Shown here one piece after another: positions 2,319 to 59,248 of a DNA stretch of 64,000 bases (position 1 is the stretch's first letter; every line of letters begins with the position of its first letter). Source of the stretch: Cephalotus follicularis (taxonomy: Eukaryota; Streptophyta; Magnoliopsida; Oxalidales; Cephalotaceae). The notes beneath the pieces were generated by a model. It was not told where the DNA came from and searched no databases. It saw only the letters and a list, made by a program, of their open reading frames with translations. Location: contig BDDD01001675.1 in assembly GCA_001972305.1 (NCBI GenBank), positions 140,160 through 204,159 of the forward strand, written 5' to 3'. The translations under genes and the position numbers were made by a program.

Positions 2319-2411
2319 GCCATCGACAGCCGACTGTCACAGGGAAGCAGCCGACTGTCTGAGGCGTGAGTGGACAATCGACTGGCCAATGCATCCAGTC
2401 GACTGGAATGG
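2319..2411 (+). repeat. CAGTCGACTG-type motif block 1 in the G1 LTR
   Basis: Five to six copies or one-off variants of CAGTCGACTG (CAGCCGACTG, CAATCGACTG, CAGTCGACTG) within about 90 bp, 160-255 bp from the LTR start. Irregular spacing separates this from a plain tandem repeat. Confidence 0.8.
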
Positions 2412-3469
2412 TGCAGAATAGGTGCCTGGCAGGCGCAAAGACAGTGATGCCAAGTGTTCTAGAGGTGGCATGCATGGGAAATACGTGTCACGAGCTGCCA
2501 TAACATGCAAGGGGAGTGCCTTGCTTGTCCTCTATTCCTTCTGCAAATTGTAGACCTGCAACATGCAAGAATCAAAAGAGAGAAAGGTGAGTAAGAGATA
2601 GAAAGAAGAGAGAAAAGAAGGGCATGTGATGAGACAAGGAGGAGTTAAAGAACTCTGGCGAATTCAAGGTCCCTGAGCCCTATATCAGCTGTGCATGAAC
2701 TGAGAGTGAGTGTTAGAAACACTGAATATTGAGGAGAGTTACTGAAATTATTGGAGCTTGTATTGAGGAATTGTAGAGAACTCAAAGAGGGAGACTTGGA
2801 AGCTTGGATTCTCCTGGTAAGTTCCCATTCGAACTCACTGTTATTGTGATAATAGTTTATCTAAGTGGATGTTCGATATCTCCTGATAAATGGTTAAGGA
2901 TAACAATCTCTTGAAATGATTTAGAAATGGTAATGAGAGGGAGAAGAATATGAATAAGGAACTTTGAGAGTTTAAGTAACTTTAACTCGAATTATAGTTG
3001 TTGATTAGTTGTTATAAACTTACTGATTCCCTTCAGCATACCTACTGTTGAACATGAAAATCAGTAGATGGATTGAGTAAGTTATTTGGAATATGGGAAA
3101 GTGTTTTAAATGGGATTAGAGACTTAGAAGTTATAGTAATCCTTGATTCAACCAGATAAAGATTATAGTAATTGATTAGTATATATACATACTGATTTCA
3201 TGTATATATCTCCTGTCGCAAATGCAAATATAGACTGAAAACTACTGGAATTATAGAAGTGATTGGTGAAAGAGTCTTGGAGACAAGAAGAGAAAGATCA
3301 CTCCAATTGATCTTGGGATAAGCTATTGAGGTAGGGGTAATGATATGTTATGGAAGATATATTATGCATATCATGTATGTATATTTTCCTGCATTGTTGC
3401 ATGTATGGATTGGATTGCAATAGACATGGAAATATTTATAACCTGCTACTGCCTGCATTTCTGGGCAGA

Positions 3470-3596
3470 AGCAGTCGACTGTTCTTCATGGCAGTCGACT
3501 GCTCAACATATTCAGTCGACTGTTAAGTAAAGACAGTCGACTACTCAATCCCAACAGCCGACTGTTCTTGAGAGCACTCGACTGTCCTGGGTAAAA
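3470..3596 (+). repeat. CAGTCGACTG-type motif block 2 in the G1 LTR
   Basis: Six copies in about 125 bp; four contain an exact GTCGAC core, the others are CAGCCGACTG and CACTCGACTG. The block lies about 1.3 kb into the LTR. Confidence 0.85.
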
Positions 3597-5386
3597 ATGT
3601 ATAACATAGATTGAATTGCTACTGTTTTGAAATGTTGTTACTGTATATGCTACCATTAGATTAGTATATACTGTATTGGTGTTATTAATACCACTACCAC
3701 TCACATTCAACGATCGAACCAATTTAGTGCTATATGCACAAATTATGATACCAACTATCATTTTCAAATGAAAGATTATTGCCAAATGGACTACTGATTT
3801 TCCTCCTATATGAGAGGCACTTCCTGTTTTGTTTCCAAACTGGAAACCACTACTGTATTGATATCGTTTTCCTCATATGAGATGAACGATCACTGGAATG
3901 TCATATGTTTCTTAAGAAAACACTTTGATATTGCATATTATTTATATATGTAATATTATTATTGAATTGTACTGATTGAATTGATTGTCTATGCATATTG
4001 CCGATTAGTCGAGTGATGGCAGATGTCACTGGCAAACGGAGGTGGTCCTATGTGCCAGGAGTTGGCTAGAGTACACACCAAAACTGCCTGCAATGTAGAG
4101 CTTGATTGTTAACTGACCGCTAAAAGCCGGCAGCACTGTTTACCTCCTATCATCAGCAGAGTTGGGGTGATAGCTAGGTGGCTCGACGTAGGCTAGGGAT
4201 TAGCGACGTGTTGAGCCCAATACTGGTCTTCGGACAAACCACTGGATTGATTGATTGTACCCTTGTGCGGTATTCTTGCATATGGATTGTTTATGGCCAC
4301 TTGGCTCATTTAAATGTTATTATAAATATAAACTGTCATACACGTTGCATTCATATATTCCTTAGCATGCATTATCTTCCTACTTAGCCAAGTGAAAACA
4401 ACGGCTAACCCCTACAATTTCAAATTAAGCGAAGACGATCGGAGTCTGCTGCTGAAGCTTGGAGAGCTTCTATTTGTCAACTTAAGGTTGTTATTTATGA
4501 TGTTGTATTGTAATTTGAAATAAACGGTTCATACCCCGTATTCTAGTATTTCCTTACGTTAAGGATAATTCTTGGATTATGCCTGCACGTAGTATGGGAT
4601 GCGTGCGGATGACTTTGTCACACCCCGTTTTCCAAAAAGACATATGGCGGTAGCAATTAACATAATTAATGCGGCTTAACCAATTTTACGATAAATTTAA
4701 ACCTTTTTAAACCGGTACATCAGTTGCGGAAGCCTTTAAATATAAGCTGAACTAACAATCGTAACACGCATCCCATACTACATGTTACAGCAAAACAACA
4801 TCATTGTTAACTGCTCAAGAAACGGAGCGTGATATAACCATCATTTAAACCATAAACATCTCGCATAGAGAAGTCCAGATATAAAAATCAATTACCAAAG
4901 CATTGTTCCAAGACCCCAAATACAATATCCAAATTGAACAAGTACAAAACATCATCCTCTCCAACATGAGTAGGATTATCATAATACAAAAACAGCTTAA
5001 ACAACCTTCAGATAGCAGCTCCCGAAATAGCTTAAACCACACTGTTGGATTATCTCTGTCACACTGAAACCGCAGGGGGATAGCCTTTGTCCTCACTCGG
5101 CAAAGCATAAAAAAACATTTTGGGATCAAGTAACGAATGTCATGAAATGAATGCATTCATGATGCAGTACGTGAATAACATAGGATATGCATGAACACAT
5201 ATATACATCCGCAAGAAGGTATCACCCGCGGGTCACAATAACACAAGCACAAGACTATCCCCAAAGGGCCAGATACAATGATCAGGTCGCTAAGGACCCA
5301 TTAAGCCATATTAAAGTTGCTGACACCCAGGCTCAACAACCGGTTATTTACACAAGAGTGCTTAGCATCCAAATGGGAGTCCCTGG

Positions 5387-5680
5387 CAACTTGCCCAGCA
5401 GAGCTTAATAACCATTTTTTGGGAAACCCTAGCTACTTACCCAACAGAGCTTAGTGGCTACTGTATACGGAACTTCCAACTGCTTTCCCAACAGAGCTCA
5501 GTAGTGGAATTCCTAGCTACTTACCCAACAGAGTTTAGTAACCCAAACAAGCCATCATAAGTAATTAACAAATAAGAAATACTTGCAATAAAAACATTCC
5601 AAATGAGATCCCAAATGAGCATTAGTCCTTTTAAACATGGTTTACCGTTTCAACTACTCACCCAACAGAGTTTAGTAGTT
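5387..5680 (-). repeat. Five imperfect hairpin units around CCCAACAGAG in the solo LTR
   Basis: Units at about 5387-5411, 5431-5459, 5478-5507, 5515-5541 and 5652-5680 share the core CCCAACAGAG (first unit CCCAGCAGAG). Most are flanked by complementary arms, best in the last unit, where AACTACT and AGTAGTT pair perfectly. On the transcribed (minus) strand the loop reads CTCTGTTGGG. Confidence 0.7.
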
Positions 5681-6123
5681 ATCAAAATTTCACAGTCCTT
5701 CTCAAGAATTTTATAAGTATAAATCTTGAAACATATATATTTTTTCACTCAAATATATAAGAATCCTTTTCAATCCTTTTCAATCCTTTTCAAGTAGTTT
5801 AGTGTATCATAAAATACTTGAAAACCGTACATTTTAAAGATATACTCTGATCCTTCAAAAATACTCATGTTCGTATAACATAATTTCAAACATTTGAAAT
5901 CATTCGTACAGTCCTTATTAGAAAAAATATATATATATTTCCACACAATGTCATATACATATTTCTCAAATCTAAACCATTTAAGAAATCATGCGGTATC
6001 ACAACAAAGCAAATCACAGCAGTATTAAATGCAACCGTATGCTCAAACATGCCTAGGGTGGCTTCTAGAATCATTCTGGAGCTAACGGATCCAAAATGAG
6101 TCAAACCATACAACCCAGGAGGA

Positions 6124-6660
6124 AAGACGTCGATGTCTTTCCAAACGCGTCGATGTCCATTGTCCCAAAAGCGTCGAGGTTCATTCCCAAAGTCACAGCT
6201 TGAAACAGTACGAATGCGTCGACGTCTTTTCTGTAGGTGTCGATGCCTACGAACCAAAGTCGATGTTCATCACAATGCGTCAACGTTTAAGGTAGGAACC
6301 TTAACACGTCCTCACGTTATGTACAAGTCCTGATGTATGACAACCAAAGACGTCGATGCCTTCCATAGACGTCGATGCTTAAGTGGTACCAGAAGGTGTC
6401 ACGACAACCAAACTCCGTTTCAAAGAAGAATCCATCCTCCCTTCGTGCATACACATCCCAGATACACCACTTACGGCGTAACACGCACCACTGGCTATCC
6501 ATATGTATCACCAAATCATCAACCCATCAAAAGTCCACAAGTCCAGAAGCAAACGTTGCAGTTTTGTAAATGTTTGAAATTGAGATCGACGCTTAACAAA
6601 GGCGTCGACGTCTATCGTCTCATCGCCTAAAGATATCGATGCTTATCAAAAAAGCATCGA
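6124..6660 (-). repeat. GCGTCGACGC-type motif block 2 in the solo LTR
   Basis: More than ten copies or near copies (GCGTCGACGT, GACGTCGATGCC, GGCGTCGACGTC, GCATCGACAT) in two clusters, 6124-6372 and 6585-6660. In LTR coordinates this is about 1.1-1.6 kb from the LTR start. Many variants differ from the palindrome by C to T or G to A at a CpG. Confidence 0.8.
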
Positions 6661-7417
6661 CATGCAAGAGTCCAGAACACTGTCTCTTTCGTTCTATCCA
6701 CAACCAGGGGTACTCAACCCATATACACATACAATCAAGCATGGGATTCACCCAGAAATCAACATGCATATATAGTTTACACCAACAGGTGTTCATATCA
6801 TCAATCAAACATTTAGTTCAACTCCCAACCAGCATGCAATTCATGCATTTCATTCATGGCAACACATTAGTTTGAACTCAAAATGCACATATACTTCCCC
6901 TACCTCTGGTTTCAAGTTAGAAACCTCGTAAGTCCACCTCTTTGAGTTCCCAGGTCCTGGCCACAGCAGCTCCAAGATCCTCTTAGCAGCTGCTACCCAC
7001 GAGCTCCCAGTCTCCAGCTCCAACAAGTTCGACAATGGTGGCTCTTACTCACTGGTTTCCTCCTCTTACTTTCTTTTGGTGTTTTAAACGAGCGAGAGAG
7101 GTGGGGAGGGGTTGTTCTTATGCAGGTGCCTCCCCCAACCTCTTTCTCCTAGCATTCAATGGGTAATCTCGTGTTCTCTCCCTCTTTCCCAGAACTCTGC
7201 ATTTTTCCTTTGTTTTCTTCTCCTCTTTTCCTTTGCAGGTTCCGTGCATGGTAACACTTGTTACCTACATCACCCATCTTCAGTCATGCAGGTCAGGAAG
7301 CCATTGTACATGATCAACACGTCTCCTTCCCGTGTCTCAAGGCGTCTGCATGGATCCTAAATCCTTCCCTCTGCACGTTACTCTGTCAAGTCGTAACGTG
7401 ACAGACATTCTTTTAAA

Positions 7418-7572
7418 AGGCGTCGACGTCTTTCCTTGGACGTTGATGTCTTTTCCACTTTCGTGAGAAAGTATCTATGTCATCACCCTACATCGACGTG
7501 CATGTCCATGCATTCACGTGCATCTCAGTTCCAAAAGGCGTTGATGTCTTTCCAAAGACGTCGATGCGTTTA
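7418..7572 (-). repeat. GCGTCGACGC-type motif block 1 in the solo LTR
   Basis: Five copies or near copies (GGCGTCGACGTC, GACGTTGATGTC, ACATCGACGTG, GGCGTTGATGTC, GACGTCGATGCG) at about 170-320 bp from the LTR start as read on the minus strand. Confidence 0.75.
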
Positions 7573-7960
7573 CCTCAAAACTGTGCCATTTTCAAGTTTA
7601 GCACACATATTTCTTTCTCCAAACAATATTTAGGGTTTTTAAGCATCTTGAGGTTGAAAACTCAACCATTCTTATTAACTCAATAATAATATTTCAACAA
7701 AATTGAAATATTACATTGTGCAAAAATCTCGGGCGTTACAGACTTGTATTTATGTTCCGGCTTATCGAATGCTTCCGCAAATTTATTTATGAATTGTTAA
7801 TTGGAATGCTGGAATATTATTATGCTTATTTATGATATTACCATATAGGCTTGTCTGTACTGGAATCTGAATAACGGGGTGTGACAAGCTGTGCTTTTGG
7901 AAGCAAGAAGACTCATTTGAAGAAGGAAGGAGCTACTCCATTCATGTGAGAAATTCCGCA

Positions 7961-8245: not shown

Positions 8246-8581
8246 TTTCTACAGTCGCGAAAGCGTTGACGCCTTCGAGATAAGCCTCGATGCCTATGCG
8301 CGATACCGCTGCAGGAATCACACGAAGATGCGTAAAGCGTCGACGCCTTTGAGAAAAGCATTGACGCTTACGCGCTGAAGAGCAGACGCTTTTGAGAAAA
8401 GCGTTGACGCTTATGCGTTAAAACTGCGTCTTCACTCGAGTAAGACGTCGTTGCCTATGTGTAAAATGATCGACGCTTTTGGGAAAAGTGTCGATGCTTA
8501 CGCGCACAAAGGATTGCAAGCGTTGACGCTTCACGCATGGACGTCGACGCTTTGTGTAAAAGCGTCGACGGTTTTGCGTTA
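8246..8581 (+). repeat. GCGTCGACGC motif array in the copia A leader
   Basis: About eleven copies or variants (GCGTTGACGC, GCGTCGACGC, GCATTGACGC, GTGTCGATGC and others) at roughly 20-45 bp spacing between primer site and gag. Many are preceded by GAGAAAA or TGTAAAA and followed by CTTNNGCG, so the local unit is longer than the palindrome. The same motif type occurs in gypsy and Sirevirus LTRs here. Confidence 0.85.
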
Positions 8582-9884: not shown

Positions 9885-10809
9885 ATGACAAATTATGTGG
9901 ACTAGCTACGGAATGTCAGAATCGTTCTGAATTCTGAGGACATAGAGTATGTCTTAGAGGCCCCTATGCCAACACTGCCTGCTGATGATGCCTCGAACGA
10001 AGATCGTGCCATTTATAAGAAATGGGTGGCTGATGAAAAGAAAGTTAGAAGCTACCTACTGGCATCGATGAGCAATGCCCTATAAGTCCAGCATGAATCG
10101 ATGCGAGACTCGAGGGAAATTCTCCTACATCTCTGTGAGTTATACGGAGAGACTAGTAGGAATGCTCGGTTCTAGCTCACTGCTGAGCTGTATGGCACTA
10201 AAATGGCTGAAGGATCATCTGTTAATGATCATGTGCTTAAGATGATCAATGTGATTGAACGTCTTGCTGCTCTTGGCATCATTCAGGATGCTGAATTAAG
10301 CACATATCTGATCCTCCACTCGCTTCCACCTTCCTTCTCTGGCTTCATCACAAATTTTAACATGAACAGGATATCAGCTACTATGGATGAGCTTCTAAAC
10401 ATGATGAGGGAAGCCGAAGTGAACATGAAAAAGGGCAAGGCGCCAGTCATGATGGTAGGACAGTCCCGTAGGCCTAAAAGGAAGGGCAAGTCCAGCCTTG
10501 AGAAGGGGAAGACTAAAAATGGGATGACAGCACCACGACCGACTTTGTTCAAAGCAGTGAAAGCCAGATCACATAATCAGACAAGCTAGCAAGCTATTGC
10601 TGTATCGAACACTATCACAAGAGTTGCACCTGCTGAGGCATCTACCTCAGAAGCTCCTGCTAAGGGACCGCGCTTCCACTGTGGGAATCGAAGACATTGG
10701 AAAAGGAACTGTGTGACATTCCTTATATCAATTGGCAAAGGTATGCCCTATTTGTCTTATATAGAGGTGAATGTGAATATTTCTAATTCATCTTCCTGGA
10801 TTTTAGATA
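9885..10809 (+). pseudogene. copia A gag, broken, ending at the nested insertion
   Basis: Copia gag of the UBN2 type: early APMPTLPADDASNEDRAIYK and WVADEKKVRSYLLASM, then GSSVNDHVLKMINVIERLA, ILHSLPPSFSGFITNF and MDELLNMMREAEVNMKKGK. It ends with a CCHC-like knuckle (FHCGNRRHWKRNC) and the start of the protease region (SSWILDRGC) at the G3 insertion point. The start chosen is ATG 9885, after a T-rich stretch ending GCAG that resembles a splice acceptor. Broken. Confidence 0.85.
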
Positions 10810-10814: not shown

Positions 10815-11055
10815 TGTAACGCCCGAGGTTTTCCTTATATTGCAATTTCACAATGTATTTGTACTTTTGAATTGTGGAATTAATAAAAGATGGATTTTCC
10901 AAATTTGATGATGTTTTCCCGAACCCTAATGATGTGGGAATGAAATCCAATTGTTACAAGAATGTTAAAGGTGCAATTTTGGTAAAACGGCACAGTTTTA
11001 GGGTTAAAGCGCTAACGCCTAGACGTGGAGCGTCGACGCTTATGCCTGAAAGTTG
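10815..11055 (+). repeat. LTR, left copy of G3 (start portion)
   Basis: TGTAACGCCCGAGG onward matches the first ~240 bp of the LTRs at 32004 and 34620, including AAAGCGCTAACGCC and GAGCGTCGACGCTT. Sirevirus LTR sequence follows at about 11056. Confidence 0.9.
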
Positions 11056-11682
11056 AAATAAGACAAGAACAACTCAGAGTAATGCTATGATTGCTGTATA
11101 ACTTGATTGATGTTTCTTGGTTGTTCTTGAGCCCTATTTATACTGTTTTTGATGAAAGAGCCGTTGTGTAATGTCTTGTAGCCGTTGGAATAATTTTGGA
11201 AACTTTGGCCTTAATTTGTGCGTTGATAAGATATCTTCTGGCTGTAATTCCCGATCAAAGCGTCGCCGGTTTTAATATAAGCGTCGACGCTTCATGTGCT
11301 GCCAGTTTGAGATTACATGTCGCCTCTTAGTAACGCTGATGCCTTGTGTCATTCGTAATTTTCAGACTTTGAATTCTGACTGCTGACGCTTTGAATACTC
11401 TGTACACTAAACTGCTGACACTTTGTGCTGAAACTGTCACCACTTTCAATTTGAGAGCTGGCGCTTTGTGCAATATTTGTAGTCGACACTTTCATATTAA
11501 TTCTCGACGCCTTCAAACTCACAAGCCCAGAAGCGCTGACACTTTCAATTTGACAGTCGCCGCTTTGTCTGGTTGAACTGATTTGTATCTGGCATATCTT
11601 CTTGCTTATCTTGCACAAAACAGACTCATTAGTTGCAAATGTGTTATCATCAAAATTAGGAATTGAGACATAAATGTCAACA
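11056..11682 (-). repeat. 3' LTR of the Sirevirus (partial)
   Basis: Minus strand starts TGTTGACATTTATGTC at 11682. It is nearly identical to 28631-29247. It contains GCGTCGACGC-type motifs between about 11255 and 11575 (for example AAGCGTCGACGCTTC at 11280). Confidence 0.88.
11255..11575 (-). repeat. GCGTCGACGC-type motif array in the Sirevirus LTR
   Basis: About ten degenerate copies (AGCGTCGACGCTT, GCTGACGCTTTG, TAGTCGACACTTTC, CTCGACGCCTTC, CAGTCGCCGCTTTG). The same set recurs in the other LTR at about 28840-29140. Many copies keep only half of the palindrome followed by TTTG or TTTC. Confidence 0.75.
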
Positions 11683-11825: not shown

Positions 11826-12825
11826 TGTCACACCCCGTTCCACAAACAACATATAAAATGGTGGCAATTAACATACAAATCTGGCTTATGCAAAATACCA
11901 TAAAATTTAAAACTTTCCATATCCATTAACAACTCACGGAAGCACATAATATAAGCCGAACCATAACGCAACATGCATCCCATACTACATGCTACAACAG
12001 TAAATATCATCACAGTTAACTGCCCTCAAAGGGAGCGTGAACAATATTCATTAATACAATAAGTCATTTATTACAATATTCCATAAACATTCCTCAAAAG
12101 TAAATAACATAAAACTTCACTTTGTTCCTTGGAGCCCAACGGTAACAAACGGCTGCATCAACCTGAAACACACTGAAGTTGTAGGGTGTTAGCCTTTGTC
12201 CTCACTCGGCAAAGCCATAAAGGCAATCCAGGGTCAAGGATAAAACATGTCATGACATGAATGCACAATGATGCAGTACATACTATATCTCGATGCATAT
12301 ATATATATATACATATGCCACGACCATACTTTTCCCGAAAACTCAAGTATCAAGGTACTTGGAATCATACCCTTTCAGTAAAACCCGGTTATTTGAACCA
12401 CATTCAAATAACTCAAAAATACGTGTTTCGTATACCTGTTTCGCAATCTCTTGAAAGCCATTTCGCAATCCTTTTGGAAAACATACTTTTCCAAACAATA
12501 AATGATTTTAATAAACCCTTCAATTAACCAAACACATTTTCACAATCCTTTTGGAAAACATACTTTTCCAAACAATAAAAGATTTTAATAAACCATTCAA
12601 TTAAACAAACACATTTTCACAATCCTTGGGAAGCCATTTTCGTAATCTTTCGAGAATATGTATATATCTCAAAACGTACAATTCGCATAAAGTAATGATT
12701 TATATAAATCATGTTTGCACCTCCAAAAAGGGTTAAAACGTTTCATAATCATCAATAACCAATTCGAAATACAGTTTATCATGGCACAAGATGCACACAT
12801 ATTCTCACAATGCAAAACAGTCCCA

Positions 12826-13305
12826 ACCAGTCGGCTGTTTCTCACTTGGCAGTTGGCTGCCCTTAACCAACAGTCGGCTGCCCTCCTTGGCAGTCAGCTG
12901 TCCCTTACCAACAGTCGGCTGCCCTCCTTGGCAGTCGGATGGTCCCTCACTTAGCAGTCGGCTGCCCTCTCCAGGCAGTCGGCTGGTCCATGTACAATAT
13001 ACATTCCTTTCTCGCCACTTGTCCCAGCATGCCACCTTAGCAAGCCCGGGCGGAGTGACACATGGACAGTAGACTGTTACCCAAAACTGTCGGCTGTACC
13101 ACCCACAGTCGGGTGCCTTCCTCTGGCAGTCGACTACTCAATCAACAAGAAGCAACCTGCAACACCAGGCATGAACAGTGGACTAGCTCCTATGCGTAGT
13201 CGGCTGTGCTCAATGGGTTGTCGGCTGTTCCTCAAGGACAGTCGACTGCTGGCCTCGGACAGTCGGCTGTCCTCCCTGGACAGTCGACTGACCCTATGGG
13301 CAGTG
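12826..13305 (-). repeat. CAGTCGGCTG-type motif block 2 in the G5 LTR
   Basis: Some fifteen copies or variants: CAGTCGGCTG, CAGTTGGCTG, CAGTCAGCTG, CAGTCGACTG, TAGTCGGCTG. It is the densest array of this type here. Several are separated by CCCTCCTTGG or CCTTACCAA, so a longer unit was locally amplified. Open frames rich in Ser-Arg-Leu across it are by-products of the repeat. Confidence 0.85.
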
Positions 13306-13814
13306 CCCAAAAACAGCAGAAATCACACATACTCAATCCACTTTAAACCAATCAAACCACAAAGCACTATCACCACAACACCCATTCATGCTTTTATCAC
13401 CATATAACATATGCATTTCACTCACGAACATCTTTATAAATGGCTTTAAATCATAATTATAGCTTTCCCCTACCTTAGAACTCCAAGTTAGGAGTTGCAA
13501 TCCACCTCTTTAAGTCCCGGATCCGAGGTCCTTGCACTCCCAAATCTGTCCAGTAGCCTCCACTGGTCCGGTTCCTCCACTGCCCAAGCCTCCAAGTTCC
13601 ACGGTTCAACACGAAGCTCCGTATCTCCACAACACACACACACTTTCACTTCATTTTCTCTACTCCCAAACACTCTTGATTCCACTGAGAAAGATGGAGA
13701 TTTGAGAAGGGAAGCTTGTGTTTTTGTGGAGAAAACCCGACCCCTCTCTCTGTCATCTGCCCCAAATGCCAAAAGTTCACATTTTTATCACTTTAAGGCT
13801 GACAGCACGTGGGC

Positions 13815-13970
13815 TGTCTGGTGCCTGGCAGTCGGCTGCCATGACTTGGCAGTCGACTATTTCTGCCGACACTCCCACCAGCCGGCTGTTCCCTCACAGC
13901 AGCTGGCTGCCGCCTTCACCAGGAGAGTCCAGTCGGCTGCCTCCCTATGGCAGTCGGCTTCCCCCTGTAC
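13815..13970 (-). repeat. CAGTCGGCTG-type motif block 1 in the G5 LTR
   Basis: Six copies (CAGTCGGCTG, CAGTCGACTA, CAGCCGGCTG, CAGCTGGCTG) at about 135-290 bp from the LTR start, the same offset as block 1 in the G1, G3 and solo LTRs. Confidence 0.8.
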
Positions 13971-14104
13971 AAAAACACACCAACATAGTTTTTCTTGCAA
14001 CTTTCAACACCCCAGAGGGGAAAAACACGATCCCCATTAACTCAACGTGTAAAATCACATTAGAAATGCAACATTACACCCTAACAAAAACTCTGGGTGT
14101 TACA

Positions 14105-14122
14105 TCCACCCCTCCTTCAAGG
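14105..14122 (-). other. polypurine tract of G5
   Basis: Minus strand CCTTGAAGGAGGGGTGGA immediately before the TGTAACACCC LTR start; nearly the same string precedes the G3 LTRs. Confidence 0.9.
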
Positions 14123-14384
14123 AATTTCATCCTCAAAATTAAAACAACACCAGGGCAAGTGAGAACAATGCTCTCGCATTTTCTATTTCTCGATCCCCCG
14201 TCTGTTCACGGCCCATAGTCGTGTGTAGTTCACTTCTGCTTACAACCCTTACAAGGAGTTGGTCCTCCTAAACATCTTACTTGCAACTTAGACAGTCCGT
14301 GAACCCAGAACAACTCTGATTGGTAGCAACAAGTCACTTACAAAATCAAAAGAAAACAACTTCATGCTTAAAACAAAAGTAAGG

Positions 14385-15604
14385 ACTTTTAGCTCACATG
14401 ATGCCCTTGCCGGTGTCCCTTCGCTTCGAAGGCCCAGCTGCAGCGCCACTATCAACCGCAGATCTTGTGGGTACTGCCATAGAAATCTCTGGACAATCCC
14501 TCACCAAATGACCAGATGCTCCACATTTCAGATACAACCCTTTCTTTACCCAGCAATCCTTCACTTGATGACCGGTATGACCACAGTGGAAACAAACCCC
14601 AGACCTTACATTACTCCCCTGACTAGGAGTTCCTTGGGTGGCAGTCTGCTGAGATTGGTTCTCAGATGATCTGGGAGGAGAATCATTGCCTTGCCATTGT
14701 GATGACGCTAGCCTGAACTGAGTAGGGCCCTATTGGCTCCTCTGCTTACGAGCCCTTTCAACACAGTCTTCATTCGAGATGCTCTCTAACAACCTTGCCT
14801 TCTGAATGACCTCCACAAAGGTCCCCAGTTCCATAGCCCTGATCCTTGATCGAAGATCTGATCGCAGACCTTTCAAAAACCTCTGTATCTTTTTACCATC
14901 ATCAGCTACCAGATAGGGGGAATGCATGGCTAGCTCCCTAAACCTTGCTGTATACTCCGCCACAGTCATTTCTCCTTGGCGTAGCTCCAGGAGATTTGTC
15001 TCCCTTCGTTCTTGCTCAAGTTGGGGCACATAAGCATCGAGGAACTCCTTCCGGAACCCCTCCTAAGTACAACCGAGTCCAGTCGACTCCCACTTTGCCT
15101 TAACATCTCCCACCAGTGGATGGCCTCACCCCATAGACGGTAGACAGCAAACTTTAGTTCCTGGTTATCTGTACAGTTCATCACATCAAAGATCTTTTCT
15201 AGATCCTGTAGCCACCTCTCAGCAATGGTAGCATCCAACTCTCCTCTAAAACTGGGTGGATTCTGTCTCATGAACCTCTCAAGGTCCCTCCCAAATCGAT
15301 TACCGTCATCACATGCACCCTGAGCAGGAGCCATGTACTGAGGCTGAGCTTGGATGTACAGTCACCGCATCTCCTCCATATACGCTGCATTAGCAGCCAT
15401 CTATTGCTGATAGCCAGCCATCTGCTGCTGAAAGAAATCAGCGATGCGGTCCAACGGATCTCTCACTCTGGGTGCTGCCCCCGACACATTCACATTAGCA
15501 TCTCCTTGTAGAACATCATCCATAGGGTCCCCTCCAACACTCATTCCCTCGGGAACATTCTCGTTAACAAACCCACGCCTTCCGCGTCTTCTCCGACCGT
15601 CCAT
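14385..15604 (-). pseudogene. gag of G5 (Ty3/gypsy), broken
   Basis: Starts MDGRRRRGRRGFVNENVPEG at 15604, preceded by TTTTCCATATAG, an acceptor-like string. The middle is the retrotransposon gag core: NPPSFRGELDATIAERWLQD, FDVMNCTDNQELKFAVYRLW, then MTVAEYTARFRELAMHSPYL and IQRFLKGLRSDLRSRIRAME. The end carries knuckle-like CFHCGHTGHQVKDC followed by CGASGHLVRDC. It lies between primer site and polypurine tract with no pol after it. Broken. Confidence 0.85.
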
Positions 15605-15705
15605 CTTGTTCCTATATGGAAAAGATGTCATTAGTAGTCATCTCAAGGAAACAATTCGTTAATTGCCAAGGAACTTATCCAAGCTAAGCATATAAATGGA
15701 TATAT

Positions 15706-15717
15706 GCTCTGATACCA
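15706..15717 (-). other. primer-binding site of G5
   Basis: TGGTATCAGAGC on the minus strand, exact match to the initiator-Met type, next to the 5' LTR. Confidence 0.93.
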
Positions 15718-15720
15718 CTG

Positions 15721-16260
15721 TTATCACACCCCGTTTCACAAACAACATATAAAGTGGTGGCAATTAACATACAAATCCGGCTTATGCAAAATAGCATAAA
15801 ATTTAAAACTTTCCATATCCATTAACAACTCGCGGAAGCACATAATATAAGCCGAACCATAACACAACATGCATCCCATACTACATGCTACAACAATAAA
15901 CATCATCACAGTTAACTGCCCTCAAACGGAGCGTGAACAATATTCATTAATACAACCATTCATTTATTACAATATTCCATAAACATTCCTCAAAAGTAAA
16001 TAACATAAAACTTCACTTTGTTGCTCGGAGCCCAACGGTAACCAACGGCTGCATCAACCTGAAACACACTGAAGTTGTAGGGGGTTAGCCTTTGTCCTCA
16101 CTCGGCAAAGCCATAAAAGCGATCCAGCGTCAAGGATAAAACATGTCATGACATGAATGCACAATGATGCAGTACATACTATATCTCGATGCATATATAT
16201 ATATATATATATATATACATATGCCACGACCACAAGGTCACAGTCCACGATGTCACCAGA
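15721..16260 (-). repeat. 5' LTR portion of G5
   Basis: Matches 11826-12318 closely (TCACACCCCGTTTCACAAAC through the AT-repeat and CATATGCCACGACCA). Only the LTR end next to the primer site is seen; the far boundary is uncertain. Includes an (AT)n tract at 16192-16216. Confidence 0.8.
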
Positions 16261-45785: not shown

Positions 45786-46167
45786 AAATATGGAAAGTTT
45801 AGATTTTTGCCAGTTTTGTAAGCAGGTTATTTTATTTTTGTTTTCCTGCAACTTTGTAAGTATAAATGCACTACACTGTCGGCCAAAATAGTGTATGTGT
45901 AGCCACCCTCTTGCTCTCTTTTCTTCTTTAATTCAGTTTTTAGTTTATACAATGTTGAGTAGCTAACTTAGTAAGGTTTTTGGGTTAGAACAAAGCCATT
46001 CGATTGTATTGTTTCAATTCCAACAATAAAAATCCTTGAATATTTGATTTGTTCTTCAAATTTTTACCTCCACACACACTTTGTCTGTCTGATTAAAATC
46101 CACAAACATCTTGTCACTGAATAAGAACGTCGGAGAATAAACGGTTTTTAATGCAATCAATGGAGTC

Positions 46168-46320
46168 TACTCATACGGTTTGTCACAACAAACATAGTCC
46201 GTATAGACCTAGCATGTCTACTCATACGATTAGCCACTGCTGCCGTACTTCGTATAGACCTAGCATGACTACTCATACGATTTGTCATCACAGTCGCACT
46301 CTGTATCGACCTAGATGCCG
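46168..46320 (+). repeat. 51-bp tandem repeat, three units
   Basis: Units starting TACTCATACGRTTWG at 46168, 46219 and 46270, each with CGTATAGACCTAGCATG or a near form. They are diverged mainly in the middle. Inside the Athila-like LTR. Confidence 0.9.
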
Positions 46321-46756
46321 TTGGTTATCATGGTTTGATCATTCAAGTAAGTGAATTGTTCAATATAATCTATGGTAAGTTGCTATACCCGAAAACCGAT
46401 TTTCTCTTGCACATTTCATTTAGTTTATTTTCTGCTTGATTAGTTAGTAAATTTGCATGCTTTGTTTCTGTTAAATACGTATTAGTGCTTTGACCGTCGA
46501 CGCCTACCCCGTAAGCGTCGACGCTTTCCTGTTTTAATTCTATTAACATCGACGCCTTTATTCCCTATTTTAATTAATTAGTTTATTTTGCATGTTTAGG
46601 AGTAGTTTTGATAAGTAACCTTATGTTTTGTATGATATGCCTATGTTAAATAGATTAAAATTAATTTAACTTGATTTCCCAGTGTTCGACCCGTTACTGC
46701 ACAACCGTGCACTTGCTGTAAAAATTTAAAACATTCAAAACATGTGAACAAGTTTT

Positions 46757-46773: not shown

Positions 46774-47001
46774 AAATAAGTTTTAAATTAGTTTTAATTT
46801 AATTAACTGATTCGTAGTATTTAGTTTAATTACTATTCAAAAAGATGCATTATGTGTTTTTATTTTCTGTTTTAAATTTCTGTTATTTTGTTTACGTTTA
46901 GTATTTTCTGTTTTAGTGTGTGTTTTGCATTAGTTATTCATTCCCCGTTTGTGCTTTCCGTTAGTTTTTTGTTCGTTTTTCGTTTTTGTTTTTGTTAATG
47001 T

Positions 47002-47795
47002 ATGACTGAGTGGGTTCGTGGTCCAAATCAACGTTTAGAGAGAATTAATCAACCTGCAGCAATTACGGACGAACGACCCATACAAGCTCTACACGATAGA
47101 TTTTACCCTGCGAGGACAGCGCAACCGTCCTGTATCCTATTGCCTGCCTCTCTAGGGAAAAATTTTGAGTTAAAATCTCAGTTAATTAACATGCTCCCGA
47201 ACTTTCATGGTTTACCCAATGAGGATGCATATCTCTTCCTTCGTGAATTCGAGGAGGTGTGTGCCCTCATGAAACTTCCGCAACTCTCGGATGACGCAAT
47301 CAAATTACATTTTATCAATTTTTCTCTGAAAGATGGAGCTAAGAAGTGGCTATACAGTCTTCCCAATATTTCCATCTCTACATGGGACCATTTCACTGTC
47401 TCGTTCCTTATGAAATTATTTCCACTTCACAAAACCAATAAGCTTAGGAACGACATTCTCCAGTTTCGCCAGTGACTGAATGAATCATTTTATAGGTGTA
47501 GAGAACATTTTAAAGACCCTCTCTTATAGTGTCCTTATCATGGTTTAAACATGTGGCATTTATGCTAAATCATTTACGGATGGATCAACTACCAGACCAA
47601 TGTGTCCTAATGGGTTCACCTCATACACCGATGAAAACGAGGCTTGAAATTTCCTATTAGATTTGGGTGAGCAAACTAGGGAGTGAGAGTCCACTCAAGC
47701 TTCTTACAGAGCTTTACCGAATAAGGGTACGTTATAGAAGGAGCAGTTTCCAAGGAGGCACAGTTAGATAGCCTCCTCATGAGATTGGAGACGAT
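47002..47795 (+). pseudogene. Athila/Tat-like gag, broken
   Basis: Open for 157 codons from ATG 47002: ELKSQLINMLPNFHGLPNED, YLFLREFEEVCALMKLPQLS, IKLHFINFSLKDGAKKWLYS and WDHFTVSFLMKLFPLHKTNK are the retrotransposon gag (capsid) pattern of the Athila/Tat group. Decayed gag-like sequence continues to 47795, where a copia LTR starts. The capsid-type role is known for the family. Confidence 0.85.
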
Positions 47796-49631
47796 TGTTA
47801 GGGTTTCCGTGCTAGTAAATCTGTTGGAAACGAACAAAACCGAATCCAATGCCATAAATGGAAAAAAGGTATAAAGGGTGTAAAACAAAACAAAACATAC
47901 AATCATGGAAGCGGAATAACACCCTATTTAAACAAAACAAGTCCATTATGACACGTCCACAGACCACATGGATGGCCACAACATCTACAGAATTGAATCG
48001 GTGTCACCATTACAAACAATGGTGACACACAAGCATGGCAAAAGGAAGAAGGACCAAGAATTATACCAGCGGGTGAAGGCTCCTTCTTTCTTTGCCGGTA
48101 CAAGCTTGAGTAGATTCCCCTATGATGTTCTCCAAGTCACAGAAACAACAAGCAATCCAACCAACAATGATAAAGTGTATGAACTCTCTCTCTCTCACAT
48201 AGCTTAGAAAAGGTATATTGATATTGACCAATAATGTCAATGATCAATCCACCCTAGATAAGCTCTTGCTTGATGTATCACAGATGAAGAGAACACACTG
48301 CAGAGAAGAATTCGAGCTCTCCTGCCCAGCAAAACTCAAACTTTTTCCACACCTTTCTTTTCTGCAGAAAATGCCTATATCTAGCCCTCTTGTTTCTCTC
48401 CCAATCTCCCATTAACCTTAGATCATGGTCCTCACTCCCTAGGAGTCTGAAGCCATGATCCCCACGTTTCTAAAACGTGTAAAATCAAGAGAAACTGGCT
48501 AAGGATGTGAGAGAAAGCATGCCCACGAAGTGAGCTCGTGCACAGGTTGCACGTTCAGCTCAAAGACGTCGACGCCTTTTCAAAAGACATCGACGTCCTT
48601 GCAATGTGGCACTAAAAGCATCGATGCTTTCTAAAATACATCGACGCCTTTCAAAATGTTAAGCATCGAAGTCTTTCTAAAAGCATTAAGAGTCTGGCCA
48701 GTGAAGCATTAAGAGTCTAACTCCTTTAGTGATCTCATGTACCCTTCGAATATTGGTTAAGTAAGATCAAACATATGTGTTTCCACAAAATGCAGAATCC
48801 ACATAACCGATATTTGACACCAAGACTAAATATGTCCAACATATTAAAGATCTAATCATTATAAGGCAGGGACCCATTAAAATCTTGGTTAAAACGAGAG
48901 GTGTTCATAAATTACCGAAATACCCCTCGGGTCCGGTTTAGCCATTCTAAATGGTCCTCGACCAATTTAAATGCTCTCGGAATAATATCTAATATTATCC
49001 ATATGGAAAAATTAATCTAATTAATTTTCCCATAATTTATTACCTATCTCATTAACCCTAGATTTTCTAAGTCGTCAGTTCACGTGTACTATAATCCCTT
49101 TTCATGCTTGGCCCCGATTGAGGTCTAGGGTAAGGATATGTGTCAACCCTAGATAGTACCTCAATGGCTAAAATATGTGATCATTACTATGACCTTTGGT
49201 AAACTCTCCGGAAATCTAATTTCCAGTCTACCTCAACCTTGGCCAAGGATTTCATAAGTCAAAAGTATAATCAAACCATAATAGGGCCGATCACCTTCGC
49301 TCAGGTGTGACAATCCCTTATTGCGCACTCACTTATATTCGTAAAGATTCGATCATACCCAAAGACCACCCGATTGCCAGCCCTGCGTAAGGACTGGGTA
49401 AGGTGGAGATCAAAGCATAACCATCTCGATACAATATAGAGTAGTCACTGAGGTCTAAGGATCATATGAGTTTAAGAACTAGCTAAGTGATCATCACTTA
49501 TACACAACCGCAACAAGTATGAGTCACTACTGACACGAGAATAGCGACTATCCAAACAGTGCCTCCTACGCGGGTCCAGTTCAGTGTACACGCTCCCAGC
49601 GTGCACCCCGTATTTTCCCTAGTGTCCAACA
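47796..49631 (-). repeat. copia LTR, minus strand
   Basis: Minus strand starts TGTTGGACACTAGGG (49631) and ends GGAAACCCTAACA (47796), about 1836 bp. Texture is that of a copia LTR (reverse of GATCAATCC-like and poly-region phrases, AATTAATTTTCCCATAAT). It contains GCGTCGACGC-type motifs at 48560-48695. The left flank is Athila-like gag; the right flank is the G4 LTR. It may be the 3' LTR of copia B (same strand, which resumes at 59249), but no shared sequence proves it. Confidence 0.65.
48560..48695 (-). repeat. GCGTCGACGC-type motif array in a copia LTR
   Basis: Six copies (GACGTCGACGCC, ACATCGACGTCC, GCATCGATGCTTTC, ACATCGACGCC, GCATCGAAGTC and a decayed one) spaced 20-35 bp. Confidence 0.8.
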
Positions 49632-50270
49632 CAGCCGAATCTGCCCTGTTAGTGTGCAATAATCTGCTGTGCAATTGTTTCCTTAAATCTATAGAGGTAA
49701 TCTCAATCCTTGGTAGTTTCTTTTGGCTTAAATTCACTTGGTTTATTGTACATGTCTAAGCTTGTTCTTATTTTGTATTCTTTGGCCCCTGTTTTGTATG
49801 CAGCCAATTTTTGATACTGTTGTAGTGGTATTCCTACTGTTTTCTAGGTTCTCTAATACCGTTACAGGTTAGTAAATTCGTTTTTCCCAGTGATAATATT
49901 GTTCTAATGGCTTACTTTGAGTTTTTGTGCTCCTGGTGTCTTGGGGTCTTTAATTCCTGTCTAAATGTGTTATCATTGTGTTAGTGATATTGCAAACACG
50001 TTTTATACTCATATATGTGTCACAAACTTGTTTTATAACATCTGTAATCGATTAGACACAAAATATGGACATATACATCCATTGTCTTTTTGCTTCCTTT
50101 TGAAAGATAAATCACTGTCAGGTTGTTTCCTTGTCAAATCTGTGTTTCTATGTCACCTACAAGTCATATATGATCATATGTTTATGTCCATATGCCTCTA
50201 GTTTGTTGTAGAAACCATTTGAACCATTTTCAGTAGCAAATCGTTGAATTTCCAACTGTTCTGTCACCCA

Positions 50271-50465
50271 GAATAGTCAACTGTCTTTGTGGACAGTCGG
50301 CTGGAATGGTTGTGTAGCCGACTGCCATATGAATGCAGTCGACTGCCTTGGTTGTGTAGTCGACTGCCTGCACTTTTAATTATGTAGTCGACTGGACCAT
50401 ATGAATAGTCGACTACCAAGCCTCCCCAGTCGACTGGAGCCCTGTTTTAGTCGACTGTTTTGCCC
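50271..50465 (+). repeat. CAGTCGACTG-type motif block in the G4 5' LTR
   Basis: About ten copies (CAGTCGGCTG, TAGCCGACTG, CAGTCGACTG, TAGTCGACTG, TAGTCGACTA); same place as in G2 and in the 3' LTR (57660-57870). Confidence 0.88.
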
Positions 50466-50989
50466 TGGAATGTGCTGTTTTCAACTGTTTTGATTCGTTT
50501 GATCCCCGAATCGAACCAAATCTTTTTCAAACACTGTTAAGAGTCTGTTTAACGCTTCTGATGTGTCTTAGACTCTTACACGTATGATTTTGAATGCCTT
50601 TTAGATTGTATAATTCAAAGGAGAAATTGTTTTGATCGCCTACTCGTAAGTACTTTGTAAGCACATAAGGTACGGATTTTCTGTTCCTTGGCTATCTGAC
50701 ATTCGAACTGAAACTGTTTTGCTAAGCATCTTCGTTTATGAAATCAACGATGTTTCATGATTTTGATACGTTTCGAATTTAAGGTTGGTTTGACATTTTA
50801 ATTTATTCCGACTTTATATATACGATATGTTATGGTACGATATATTAAGATACGATATGTTATGATATGATATGTTATAATACCATTGTGAGTGGTTTTT
50901 GAATATGTTGTGTGAAAACATATTCATGTGATTTAAGTTGATTTTGATAAATCAATTATTTTTTAATTAAATACTGAGTATTGTACCCA

Positions 50990-51249
50990 CCTATGGGGCG
51001 TATCCATAGGCACGTCGTGGGCTTGGCACGAGGACGTGACACTTCCGTAGCAGTGTGATTAGACTACGGCGTCTCTGAGTGTATGAACAGATCCCATGAG
51101 GTGGATTTGTGGATCCGCTATGTATGATAGAGGCGTATGAATCGATTCTAGTTTATGTGATCTGAGGTGAATTCAGATATATGGTCCGAGGTGTGATCGG
51201 ATATGTGTATATGAGAATTGACTTGTGTAGTGCCGTACACTTCAATTCT
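50990..51249 (+). promoter_or_regulatory. Conserved stem-loop module in the G4 5' LTR
   Basis: CCTATGG/CCATAGG (50990-51010), CACGTC/GACGTG (51011-51038), CCGTAG/CTACGG around 51044-51070, and a long hairpin AGAATTGA...GTGTA-GTGCCG-TACAC...TCAATTCT (51212-51249). Repeated in the 3' LTR at 58399-58660. Confidence 0.65.
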
Positions 51250-51844
51250 AGTGGGCATGTGGAATTAGCGTCTCCCTTGCCAAAATTTGTGATATGTGAT
51301 ATGAATATGGCTCAGTATGTTTTATGAACTATGATTTATAACGTTCCGTAATTGTTTAAAAAAATGTGCAATTGTCATTTGAATGTGATTAAACTGTTTT
51401 ATCTATTAAAGATTTCTGTTACGTTATTATTGGATTATTCACGTTTTTAAAGTACTGTTTACTGTTTTATTTCCCTTATCCGTACTGAGGTTTGCTCAGC
51501 CGCGTTTTTGTTTCCATGCGACAGGTTTTCAGGAGCAGCGGGGGAAAGTGTGATTGAGTGATGACCACCCTATGTGTTGGATCCTTAGGAGAGTGATCCT
51601 TATGTTATGTTTAGTGGTCTGAAATATGGATTATTATGTTTTATGTTTTATGTTTTAAATTGGAACTGATTTAGGTTTTGAATTTTCCGCAACTACTTAA
51701 TGTGTTAGATGGTTAAGCATTATTGTTTTGATAAGACTGCCACGCTTTGGCTATTATTGACTAATAAAGCAAACTTATGATTTGTTATGTTATGTATGAT
51801 TTGACCCTGTGACGACTCCCGCCGTCCGGGGGTGTTACAGATTG

Positions 51845-56460: not shown

Positions 56461-56500
56461 GAGGTATGTTTGTGTTTGTGATTTCGGGACGAAATCTTCT

Positions 56501-56516
56501 TTTTAGGGGGGGTGGA
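56501..56516 (+). other. polypurine tract of G4
   Basis: TTTTAGGGGGGGTGGA directly before TGTAATACCC. Confidence 0.9.
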
Positions 56517-59248
56517 TGTAATACCCAGCTCGTTCGTAAATATATTTTACGGAATTTATATGTGTTTTCGGGCTTTTAATTTTGTTTAATTTTAAAAGTC
56601 CGGTTGCCCTACGATTTGGGTTTATGTGAATTGAGCTGACTGATACCAGTCCGAAATTTTGGGTATGTTGTGCTATGTTGGGTTTGGATTTTACTTATTT
56701 TATTATAATCCCAAAATAATTTTATTAAAAACAAAATATCATTCTTTTATTTTAAAATTCCTTAATTCTTTTTATTATTAATACTTTATTTTCCTTTTTC
56801 CTATTTTATCATTTTCTCCTACTTTCCTCCCATCTTCTTCCTTCTTTCCAGCAAATCTTTCTTCCCACCATCTAATTCACATGCTAAATCCTTCCTTTTC
56901 CCATTTCAAAATCCAGAAAAGTCTCCTTTCTTCCTCTTTTGTCAAATCATGTCTCCTCCTTTCTCCTTTATTGAATGCCTTTGTCATTTTATATGATACC
57001 TCATCCTTCTTGCAAGCCACAGCCGAATCTGCCCTGTTAGTGTGCAATAATCTGCTGTGCAATTGTTTCCTTAAATCTATAGAGGTAATCTCAATCCTTG
57101 GTAGTTTCTTTTGGGTTAAATTCACTTGGTTTATTGTACATGTGTAAGCTTGTTCTTATTTTGTATTCTTTGGCCCCTGTTCTGTATGCAGCCGATTTTT
57201 GATACTGTTATAGTGGTATTCCTACTATTTTCTGGGTTCTCTAATATCGTTACAAGTTAGCAAATTCGTTTTCCCCAGTGACAATCTCGTTCTAATGGCT
57301 TACTTTGAGTTTTTGTGCTCTTGGTGTCTTGGGGTCTTTAATTCCTGTCTAAATGTGTTGTCATTGTGTTAGTGATATTGCAAACACGTTTTATACTCAT
57401 ATATGTGTCACAAACTTGTTTTATAACATCTATAATCGATTAGAGACAGAATCTGGACATATACATCCATTGTCTTTTTGCTTCCTTTTGAAAGATAAAT
57501 CACTGTCAGGTTGTTTCCTTGTCAAATATATGTTTCTAAGTCACCTACAAGTCATATATGATCATATGTCTATGTCCATATGCCTCTAGTTTGTTGTAGA
57601 AGCCATTTGAACCATTTTCAATAGCAAATCATCGAATTTCCAACTGTTCTGTCGCCCAGAACAGTCGGCTATCTCTGTAGACAGTCGGCTGGAATGGTTG
57701 TGTAGACGACTGCCACATGAATGCAGTCGACTGCCTTGGTTGTGTAGTCAACTGGAGGGATGAACACAGTTAACTGCCTGCACTTTTAATTGTGTAGTTG
57801 ACTGGACCATATGAATAGTCGACTGCCAAGCCTCCCTAGTCGACTGGAGCCCTGTTTTAGTCGACTGTTTTGCCCTGGAATGTGCTGTTTTCAACTGTTT
57901 TGATTCGTTTGATCCCCGAATCGATCCAAATCTTTTTCAAACACTGTTAAGAGTCTGTTTAATGCTTCCGATGTGTCTTAGACTCTTACACGTATGATTT
58001 TGAATGCCTTTTAGATTGTATACTTCAAATGAGAAATTGTTTTGATCGCCTACTCGTAAGTACTTTGTAAGCACATAATGTACGGATTTTCTGTTCCTTG
58101 GCTATCTGACATTCGAATTGAAACTGTTTTGCTAAGCATCTTCGTTTATGAAATCAACGATGTTTCATGATTTTGATACATTTTGAATTTAAAGTTGGTT
58201 TGACATTTAATTTATTCCGACTTTGTCTATACGATATGTTATGGTACGATATATTAGGATACGATATGTTATGATACGATATGTTATAATACCATTGTGA
58301 GCGGTTTTTGAATATGTTGTATGAAAACATATTTATGTGATTTAAGTTGATTTTGATAAATCAATTATTTTTGAATTAAATACTGAGTATTGTACCCACC
58401 TATGGGGCGTATCCATAGGCACGTCGTGGGCGTGGCACGGGGACGTGACACTTCCGTAGCAGCGTGATTAGACTACGGCGTCTCTGAGTGTATGAACAGA
58501 TCCCATGATGTGGATTTGTGGATCCGCTATGTATGATAGAGGCGTATGAATCGATTCTAGTTTATGTGATCTGAGGTGAATTCAGATATATGGTCCGAGG
58601 TGTGATCGTATATGTGTATGTGAGAATTGACTTCTGTAGTGCCGTACACTTCAATTCTAGTGGGCATGTGGAATTAGCGCCTCCCTTGCCAAAATTTATG
58701 ATATGTGATATGAATATGGCTCAGTATGTTTTGTGAACTATGATTTATAACGTTCCGTAATTGTTTCGAAAAATGTGCAATTGTCATTTGAATGTGATTA
58801 AACTATTTTATCTGTTAAAGATTTCTGTTACGTTATTATTGGATTATTAACCTTTTTAAATTACCGTTTACTATTTCATTTTCCTTATCCGTACTGAGGT
58901 TTGCTCAGCCGCGTTTTTGTTTCCATGCAGCAGGTTTTCAGGAGCAGCGGGGGAAAGTGTGATTGAGTGATGACGACCCTATGTGTTGGGTCCTTAGGAG
59001 AGTGATCCTTATGTTATGTTTAGTGGTCAGAAACATGGATTATTATGTTTTATGTTTTATGTTTTAAATTGGAACTGATTTATGTTTTGAATTTTCCGCA
59101 ACTACTTAATGTGTTAGATGGTTAAGCATTATTGTTTTGATAAGATTGCCACGCTTTGGCTATTATTGACTAATAAAGCGAACTTATGATTTGTTAAGTT
59201 ATGTATGATATGACCCTGTGATGACTCCCATCGTCCGAGGGTGTTACA
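56517..59248 (+). repeat. 3' LTR of G4
   Basis: TGTAATACCCAGCTCG to GTCCGAGGGTGTTACA, 2732 bp. A pyrimidine-rich tract (56750-57010) precedes the donor-like AGAGGTAATCTC (57080); the CAGTCGACTG-type block is at 57660-57870; the stem-loop module at 58399-58480; CTGAGGTTTGCTCAG, a 5-bp hairpin, near 58893. Confidence 0.93.
57660..57870 (+). repeat. CAGTCGACTG-type motif block in the G4 3' LTR
   Basis: About eleven copies or variants (CAGTCGGCTA, CAGTCGGCTG, TAGACGACTG, CAGTCGACTG, TAGTCAACTG, CAGTTAACTG, TAGTTGACTG). The extra CAGTTAACTG unit near 57765 is absent from the 5' LTR. Confidence 0.88.

Follow-up and report, generated by a model that had tools for sequence, protein, structure and literature searches.

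The 64,000-nucleotide stretch of the Cephalotus follicularis genome analyzed here (contig BDDD01001675.1, positions 140,160 to 204,159; hereafter the window, from whose first letter all positions are counted) carries arrays of a palindrome with a GTCGAC core in the long terminal repeats (LTRs), and in one leader, of unrelated LTR retrotransposons, namely chromovirus-like, Athila-like, Sirevirus-like and copia elements. The palindromes occurred as two largely exclusive types and followed one another mostly at a step of 20–21 bp, and in the Sirevirus-like and Athila-like LTRs they lay upstream of TATA-like words. The reading that we prefer, with a little better than even confidence, is that the arrays are clustered cis-regulatory sites, accumulated independently by unrelated elements for one host DNA-binding protein or a related pair. 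The lineage names, Tekay-like and the others, were given from terminal words and chromodomains and are what we take the elements to be.

GTCGAC was present in 53 copies in the window against 6.1 expected from dinucleotide content, and this ratio of 8.7 was the highest among all 64 palindromic 6-mers. The first flanking bases kept the dyad symmetry in 46 of the 53 cores (24 AGTCGACT and 22 CGTCGACG) and were asymmetric in seven, while TGTCGACA and GGTCGACC, with T..A or G..C flanks, had no copies in the window. Near copies, defined as having at most two mismatches in 10 to CAGTCGACTG (type A) or GCGTCGACGC (type C) and at most one in the core, numbered 118, compared with a mean of 13.3 and a maximum of 18 in 20 local Markov sequences. 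When all 6-mers were scored on both strands under an order-2 Markov model, the ten most over-represented in the window all overlapped the two motifs, counting one flank base and GCCGAC; this third word (33 copies, 8.4 expected) belongs to the A arrays. Element bounds were drawn from self-comparison, primer-binding site (PBS) words, polypurine tracts (PPTs) with LTR termini, and Pfam domains of unmodified frames. They defined an LTR and leader set of 16 bounded stretches (27.6 kb), beside which stood a coding set of 20 open frames (15.9 kb), of which 19 matched a Pfam family at the chosen E-value, two of them falling short of the curated cut-off, and one, at 39489–40214, was counted as coding without a match. 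The LTR and leader stretches held 110 of the 118 near copies, and the coding frames held four of the other eight, singly scattered. The initial annotation had described a palindrome family with a common core and different flanks, arrayed across retroelements in LTRs or the leader and never in coding parts. This description held, with an excess stronger than claimed; inside the window the motif was denser in LTRs and leaders than in coding parts and in Markov or shuffled sequence, and motif sites lay at or beside each place that had been named with a coordinate (2319, 44187, 45375, 46495, 48560 and 57870).

Each array was dominated by one type. A-type arrays were found in three chromovirus-like LTR families (G1, NA and T), while the chromovirus-like LTRs with C-type arrays were the solo LTR at 4616–7740, those of element X, the solo LTR R6 and the LTR from 44187. 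All 53 near copies in A-type LTRs were closer to A, and 52 of the 57 in C-type LTRs and the leader were closer to C (three closer to A, two tied), which agrees with the earlier remark that the two palindromes are mostly unmixed within an LTR. The half-site versions were CGACTG in type A and CGACGC(TT) in type C. In the chromovirus LTRs with two blocks (G1, NA, the solo LTR, R6 and X LTR 3) the majority type was the same in both blocks in 5/5, an agreement that, with five cases, is suggestive only.

Scans with two matrices, C trained on 11 chromovirus C sites and A on nine A sites of G1 and NA, used a single threshold fixed before the run. Outside the chromoviruses the C matrix scored 11 hits in the copia leader, where shuffled sequence gave a mean of 0.13 and at most 1. 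It found 12 in the Athila-like LTR, five in the copia-like LTR, and four and three in the two Sirevirus-like copies; over all these stretches shuffle means were 0.05–0.3 and maxima 1–3. It had no hits in four A-type LTRs (G1, NA, T1 and T2 3′) and in six control stretches (four pol regions, one gag-side stretch and one copia 3′ LTR region). The A matrix found nine sites each in T1 and T2, and zero to three in each C-type or control stretch, never more than the shuffle maximum; two of its three hits in R6 were hybrid sites. With the palindromes unmasked, BLAST among the 16 stretches aligned several arrays of different families. With the palindromes masked, the remaining chromovirus alignments were those of T1 with both T2 LTRs and of X with its own LTRs and the solo LTR; the Sirevirus-like copies also still aligned to one another, and G1 and the Athila-like stretch each kept a single self-match. 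Masked alignment across lineages gave nothing among the 16 stretches, at spacers of ∼11 bases, a length at which weak spacer similarity could escape; 43 spacers compared directly had an identity of 0.32 within and 0.28 between arrays, near chance. No chromovirus sequence could be aligned to the Sirevirus-like, copia or Athila-like stretches, whose termini, PBS or PPT were their own. In line with the several lineages of the initial annotation, the array-bearing LTRs were not one family: outside the palindromes they aligned only within two chromovirus groups and the Sirevirus-like pair. Its count of five lineages needs correcting, as most array-bearing LTRs, the one at 4616–7740 among them, are chromovirus-like, so that the count becomes one large chromovirus group and four others.

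Step statistics were taken from successive matrix hits less than 120 bp apart in 11 stretches, leaving out sister copies (X LTR 2, the second Sirevirus-like copy and T2). The distance was 20–21 bp in 51 of 94 cases and below 19 bp in none, though distances of 7–18 bp were detectable. Looser near copies gave 20 or 21 bp for 43 of 85 distances of 11–110 bp. In the four lineages outside the training set, 11 of 26 distances were 20–21 bp (tail probability ∼1e-11 under a crude uniform null), and in the Sirevirus-like LTR the half-sites matched by a looser word were 21, 32, 21, 25, 43 and 32 bp apart. Since this step dominates across near-unrelated spacers, it was kept while the spacer was free; the arrays, earlier called irregular, are not so.

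Chromovirus-like LTRs often had two blocks, block 1 within +135 to +365 of the LTR and block 2 within +815 to +1594. The G1 3′ LTR, which starts at 2156 after a polypurine tract, had four A sites in block 1 (2327–2405, plus strand; +172 to +241, steps 21/27/21) and six in block 2 (3472–3584, plus strand; +1317 to +1420, steps 20/21/21/21/20). The NA LTR (11826–14104, minus strand) had 17 near copies, with A blocks at +145 to +267 and +815 to +1268, and nine GCCGAC variants in one orientation throughout. A candidate non-autonomous element at 11826–16212 with an internal array was ruled out by the minus-strand PPT and the LTR start at 14104. The T family had near copies in the second block only, with scattered words upstream at three mismatches. 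Its plus-strand A arrays were at 25292–25474 in the T1 3′ LTR (from 24138, with a chromodomain frame at 23545–24084 just upstream), at 50274–50457 in the T2 5′ LTR remnant (49630–51839, PBS at 51845) and at 57662–57867 in the T2 3′ LTR (56517–59249). Among C-type LTRs, the solo LTR at 4616–7740 (minus strand) had the target-site duplication (TSD) AAGTC on both sides and C sites at +174 to +312 and +1130 to +1585; a copia LTR at 6147–7558 was ruled out by masked BLAST and this TSD in favor of the chromovirus-like solo LTR. The solo LTR R6 (17264–19849, plus strand, flanks TCCTC/TCCTT) had C and hybrid sites at +135 to +255 and +1059 to +1157, and a minus-strand frame at 19811–20335 matched Transposase_32 (putative plant transposon protein, E 2.7e-13). 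The LTR beginning with TGTAATGCCCG at 44187 had a C block at 44326–44559 (plus strand).

Element X (10815–37206, TSD GAGGA) was a chain of LTR, internal region, LTR, PBS, truncated internal region and LTR, as from unequal recombination. On the plus strand it comprised the 5′ part of an LTR (10815–11046, C site at 11030, with the same TSD at 37207–37211), LTR 2 (32004–33423, C block 1 at 32219–32296) and LTR 3 (34620–37206, C block 1 at 34834–34911 and block 2 at 35689–35860). Within 11030–11053 the 5′ LTR lost similarity to its sister LTRs ∼7 bp past the C-type palindrome, and Sirevirus-like LTR sequence began soon after the break, placing the junction near the motif. Relatives of the chromovirus polymerase, judged by the best 120 of 8000 scored, were at most 79% identical; the top named ones came chiefly from Asteraceae, with others from Solanum and Apium, and many from Cucumis melo stood further down. 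A copia frame had its best matches in unnamed sources and Hibiscus, at no more than 63% identity. Together these matches indicate a eudicot host and nothing narrower. The same type of polymerase query had no match in viral contigs. Motif pairs at 20–21 bp were found in five viral contigs for type A and in at least 120 stretches for type C. The five A-type contigs held one pair each, two of them (L003 and L004) having 63–64% GC and the others (L001, L002 and L005) having long frames that looked phage-like or were of no recognized kind; these A-type pairs were taken as background.

The copia leader array (C type, 8263–8571, plus strand) lies downstream of the PBS TGGTATCAGAGC at 8123, and its 11 matrix hits had steps of 21/53/21/43/44/22/21/32/21/21; gag (PF14223) of this element is at 10176–10589. 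The leader also had a chromovirus-start-like word at 8988, 3′ of the array, was without any LTR-end-like word, and held four copies of TTTTGGCCCCC(G/A)TCAAG at 9374, 9464, 9546 and 9656 (spaced 82–110 bp), which recall repeated polypurine tracts seen from the other strand. The Sirevirus-like 3′ LTR (11053–11682, minus strand) had a degenerate C array upstream of TATAAATAGG at 11142, with half-site words at +117, 138, 170, 191, 216, 259 and 291, matrix hits at about +121, 174, 394 and 415 and the TATA word at +541. It was bounded by the PPT GGGGGAG and an AT/TG junction at 11691–11681, a combination described for Sireviruses in the accessible text of PMC2829016; its 3′ end was not found. A second copy (28629–29246, minus strand) was 96.9% identical, with a C site at 28857 and three matrix hits.

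The Athila-like LTR, whose left edge was not found, had a C array at 45430–45768 (plus strand) upstream of TATAAATGC at 45861, one more matrix hit near 45390, and a second C cluster at 46494–46555 (plus strand) ∼200 bp before the Asp-type PBS at 46757; gag (PF03732) follows at 46999–47475. Downstream of the TATA word, at 46160–46330, were short repeats of the CTACTCATACG..GACCTAGCATG type. In the copia-like LTR, bounded by TGTTGGA (47822) and TCCAACA (49631), a C array at 48566–48680 (no strand assigned) had five matrix hits at steps of 21/31/20/25. This LTR with inverted termini joins the Athila-like gag on its left to the truncated T2 LTR on its right and is without a matching 5-bp flank (right flank CAGCC), so it is probably a recombination or deletion scar. 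Further along, within and beside minus-strand copia frames, were two head-to-tail duplications, 59331–60271/60272–61212 (941 bp, 99.9%) and 62426–63093/63094–63761 (668 bp, 100% identity), each either a recent tandem duplication or an assembly artefact.

Changes in motif copies were not decay-like. LTR pairs differed at 44 of 142 CpGs, as against 178 of 4113 sites overall, so that simple decay of the copies should show mainly as CpG loss. Among the 29 one-mismatch A copies (halves folded), 15 instead had T>C at position 4 (GTCGAC becoming GCCGAC), 10 had C>T at position 1, and none had the CpG C>T transition, which was seen in four of 23 C copies. As for position, TATAAATAGG starts 118 bp beyond the last Sirevirus-like near copy and TATAAATGC starts 93 bp beyond the last near copy of the Athila-like block. 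Enrichment of CpG in the arrays was mixed, being above the rest in the copia leader and the Athila-like LTR and not clearly so in T2 and NA.

Dyad symmetry, step, free spacers, promoter-side position and recurrence in unrelated elements are as expected of sites for a dimeric host regulator. Each 10–16 bp dyad would be read by a putative protein dimer, and dimers ∼21 bp apart, that is two helical turns, may touch or cooperate, the spacer sequence being irrelevant to binding. The two half-site versions, one per LTR, point to two related factors or two binding modes, probably. Activation of the LTR promoter is the most likely effect of binding and may require an unmethylated central CpG. Of the two interpretations in the initial annotation, convergence toward a site bound by a host factor fits, because motif and step are the same, the arrays lie mostly in LTRs, spacers are near chance in identity and masked sequences do not align across lineages. 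A bolder and unlikely version is that one trans-acting recognition system, dimer by dimer every 21 bp, is used at once by Gypsy chromoviruses, Athila-like, Sirevirus-like and copia elements with two exclusive specificities, whole LTRs (both blocks) having switched between them, and that the protein may be an anti-silencing hub derived from a transposable element and parasitized by unrelated elements. If the pattern were genome-wide, one cis-regulatory signal would link retrotransposon lineages that split very long ago, and the long-standing question whether shared host factors drive genome-wide bursts of unrelated elements could be tested; a bait for the protein can be defined from the step and the pair of exclusive types, which also allow a simple count of clients in sequenced relatives.

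Several observations weigh against regulatory sites of this kind. CpG-decayed copies were present among those with two mismatches, and between T1 and T2 the palindromes were not extra-conserved, 80 of 90 of their columns being identical and 112 of 128 of the spacer columns. The copia leader array and the Athila-like cluster near the LTR end are probably downstream of the transcription start; TATA-like words come easily in AT-rich LTRs; by the pattern used, neither T1 nor T2 had one in its 3′ LTR. One near-copy pair (32270/32287) was spaced 17 bp. At distances of 25 bp or more there was no helical register at 10.5 bp (P 0.30), and the signal at 21 bp (P 0.02) was out of phase; a separate periodicity scan was dominated by the 20–21 bp class and was set aside. 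Cooperation beyond neighboring sites is unsupported, and the absence of a 10.5-bp register over long distances limits the claim to the neighbor-to-neighbor step. The analysis covered one window of one genome, with no relatives from outside it.

The same anatomy would be accounted for by an element-encoded anti-silencing protein, like VANC of the Arabidopsis VANDAL elements, which binds the arrays and lifts silencing, with unrelated retroelements as clients through the motif. VANC target motifs are, in the portion of PMC5735166 available, short, dense, non-coding, fast-diversifying and of two versions, and those of VANC6 also occur in the unrelated AT9TSD1, which shows that unrelated elements can have a common motif; the A and C chromovirus LTR families would fit co-evolution with a changing binder. 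The VANC motifs form same-orientation arrays in tandem repeats as far as that portion goes, whereas those of the window are dyads with near-unrelated spacers, and the 30 frames scanned with Pfam held no candidate protein, only retroelement domains, one Transposase_32, or nothing. As an explanation, such a protein is rather improbable. Somewhat less probable again is that the arrays are kept for single-strand structure, the palindromes pairing into hairpins that are processed into small RNAs or that give the leader RNA its shape, a role put forward for the palindromes of maize Sireviruses. Predicted folding of 15 array segments gave 10 at z ≤ -2.5 (the copia leader -6.82, and the best, T2a, -8.27), and small-RNA excess at Sirevirus palindrome clusters was reported in 2016 work, as cited in the available part of PMC10760457. 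Any palindrome array folds, though, and five of the 15 segments were weaker than z -2.5, one at +0.27. The nine one-way GCCGAC variants of NA, any two of which would pair with two mismatches by a hand-worked pairing, also speak against hairpins, and structure predicts neither the step of 20–21 bp across lineages nor the exclusivity of A and C. In the copia leader array alone, there may be an RNA role.

The other interpretation in the initial annotation was that short arrays moved from one element to another through template switching, which would take place in mixed particles; recombination is a further conceivable route. Nested and recombined elements are abundant here, the similarity of the X 5′ LTR ends ∼7 bp past a palindrome, and several cross-lineage array pairs aligned while the palindromes were unmasked. 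These alignments vanished on masking, and spacers between arrays were 28% identical, near chance. Transfer predicts common spacers or flanks, and as none were found this interpretation is unsupported and has only a small chance of being right. A marginally smaller chance goes to common descent, by which all arrays would go back to a single ancestral LTR design, or to chromovirus LTRs that had inserted into the other elements. The two-block layout common to the chromovirus LTRs makes descent likely within that group, and the chromovirus-start-like word at 8988 in the copia leader would fit an inserted LTR. That leader has no LTR-end-like word, however, and the independent termini and PBS or PPT of the Sirevirus-like, copia and Athila-like stretches, with no alignable chromovirus sequence, argue against descent beyond the group. 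Very improbable is that the palindromes are preferred integration targets or arose by neutral expansion of tandem repeats. Plant LTR elements do have a weak palindrome preference, but the accessible text of PMC6911290 puts it at only 0.1–0.3 bases in most families and its authors attach little importance to it. Under neutral expansion the spacers would be repeated, and such repeats were not seen.

Regulation by a host protein, the reading that we prefer, invites comparison with known binding sites. C-repeat/dehydration-responsive element (CRT/DRE) sites, RYCGAC, are bound by CBF/DREB proteins. GTCGAC fits RYCGAC on both strands and the A variant GCCGAC on one, and these two words dominate the A type. 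The C type differs in extending toward AAGCGTCGACGCTT, and we know of no CRT/DRE sites arranged as dyads at 21-bp steps. Judged from the sites themselves, binding of the A type by CBF/DREB proteins would be a lead, not a result.

Open-licence literature, by title and start of abstract, held nothing on these two palindromes in retrotransposons, and no transposable element paper with CAGTCGACTG, GCGTCGACGC, AGTCGACT or CGTCGACG as whole words. Within these bounds, palindromic LTR repeats are known from Sireviruses, while sharing between Gypsy and Copia, the 21-bp step and the exclusive types were not found. A maize Sirevirus palindrome, CACCGGACNNNGTCCGGTG, also occurs in structured regions of Helitrons and thus likewise in two superfamilies of transposable elements; in the available part of PMC10760457 it is a different sequence treated as RNA structure, and its presence in Helitrons could reflect nested sequence. 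The targets of VANC are similar to the arrays here in that short motifs stand densely arrayed outside the coding parts of transposable elements, come in two versions and are shared with an unrelated element, so far as the accessible portions of PMC5735166 and PMC10398659 go. They differ, by the accessible portion of PMC5735166, in forming tandem repeated units of the same orientation in DNA transposons and in having an identified protein, whereas the sites here are dyads; the text of that paper does not mention palindromes.

Among the nearest likenesses are the repeated motif (RM) boxes of Sireviruses (Bousios et al., 2010; PMC2829016). In the accessible part of that paper, a CGG-CCG core was present in 12 of 13 elements, Tnd-1 being the exception, and the boxes were stated to be specific to Sireviruses and absent from classic retrotransposons, in a set that covered Ty1/copia and not Gypsy. 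The arrays of the window differ in their GTCGAC core with A/T or C/G flanks (GGTCGACC having no copies) and in their occurrence in chromovirus-like, Athila-like and copia LTRs or leader, hence in both Gypsy and Copia. They also have a step of 20–21 bp and two exclusive types, where the part of the paper available describes no fixed step. By the same part, both are palindromic, CpG-bearing, in high copy and with diverged flanks, both lie in the LTR upstream of the TATA region, and the RM sequence of a Vitis element, CGGTCGACCG, contains GTCGAC. In position, the Sirevirus-like LTR of the window, whose 3′ end was not found, resembles the RM boxes, its sites at +117 to +415 standing a few hundred bp after the LTR start and upstream of the TATA word at +541.

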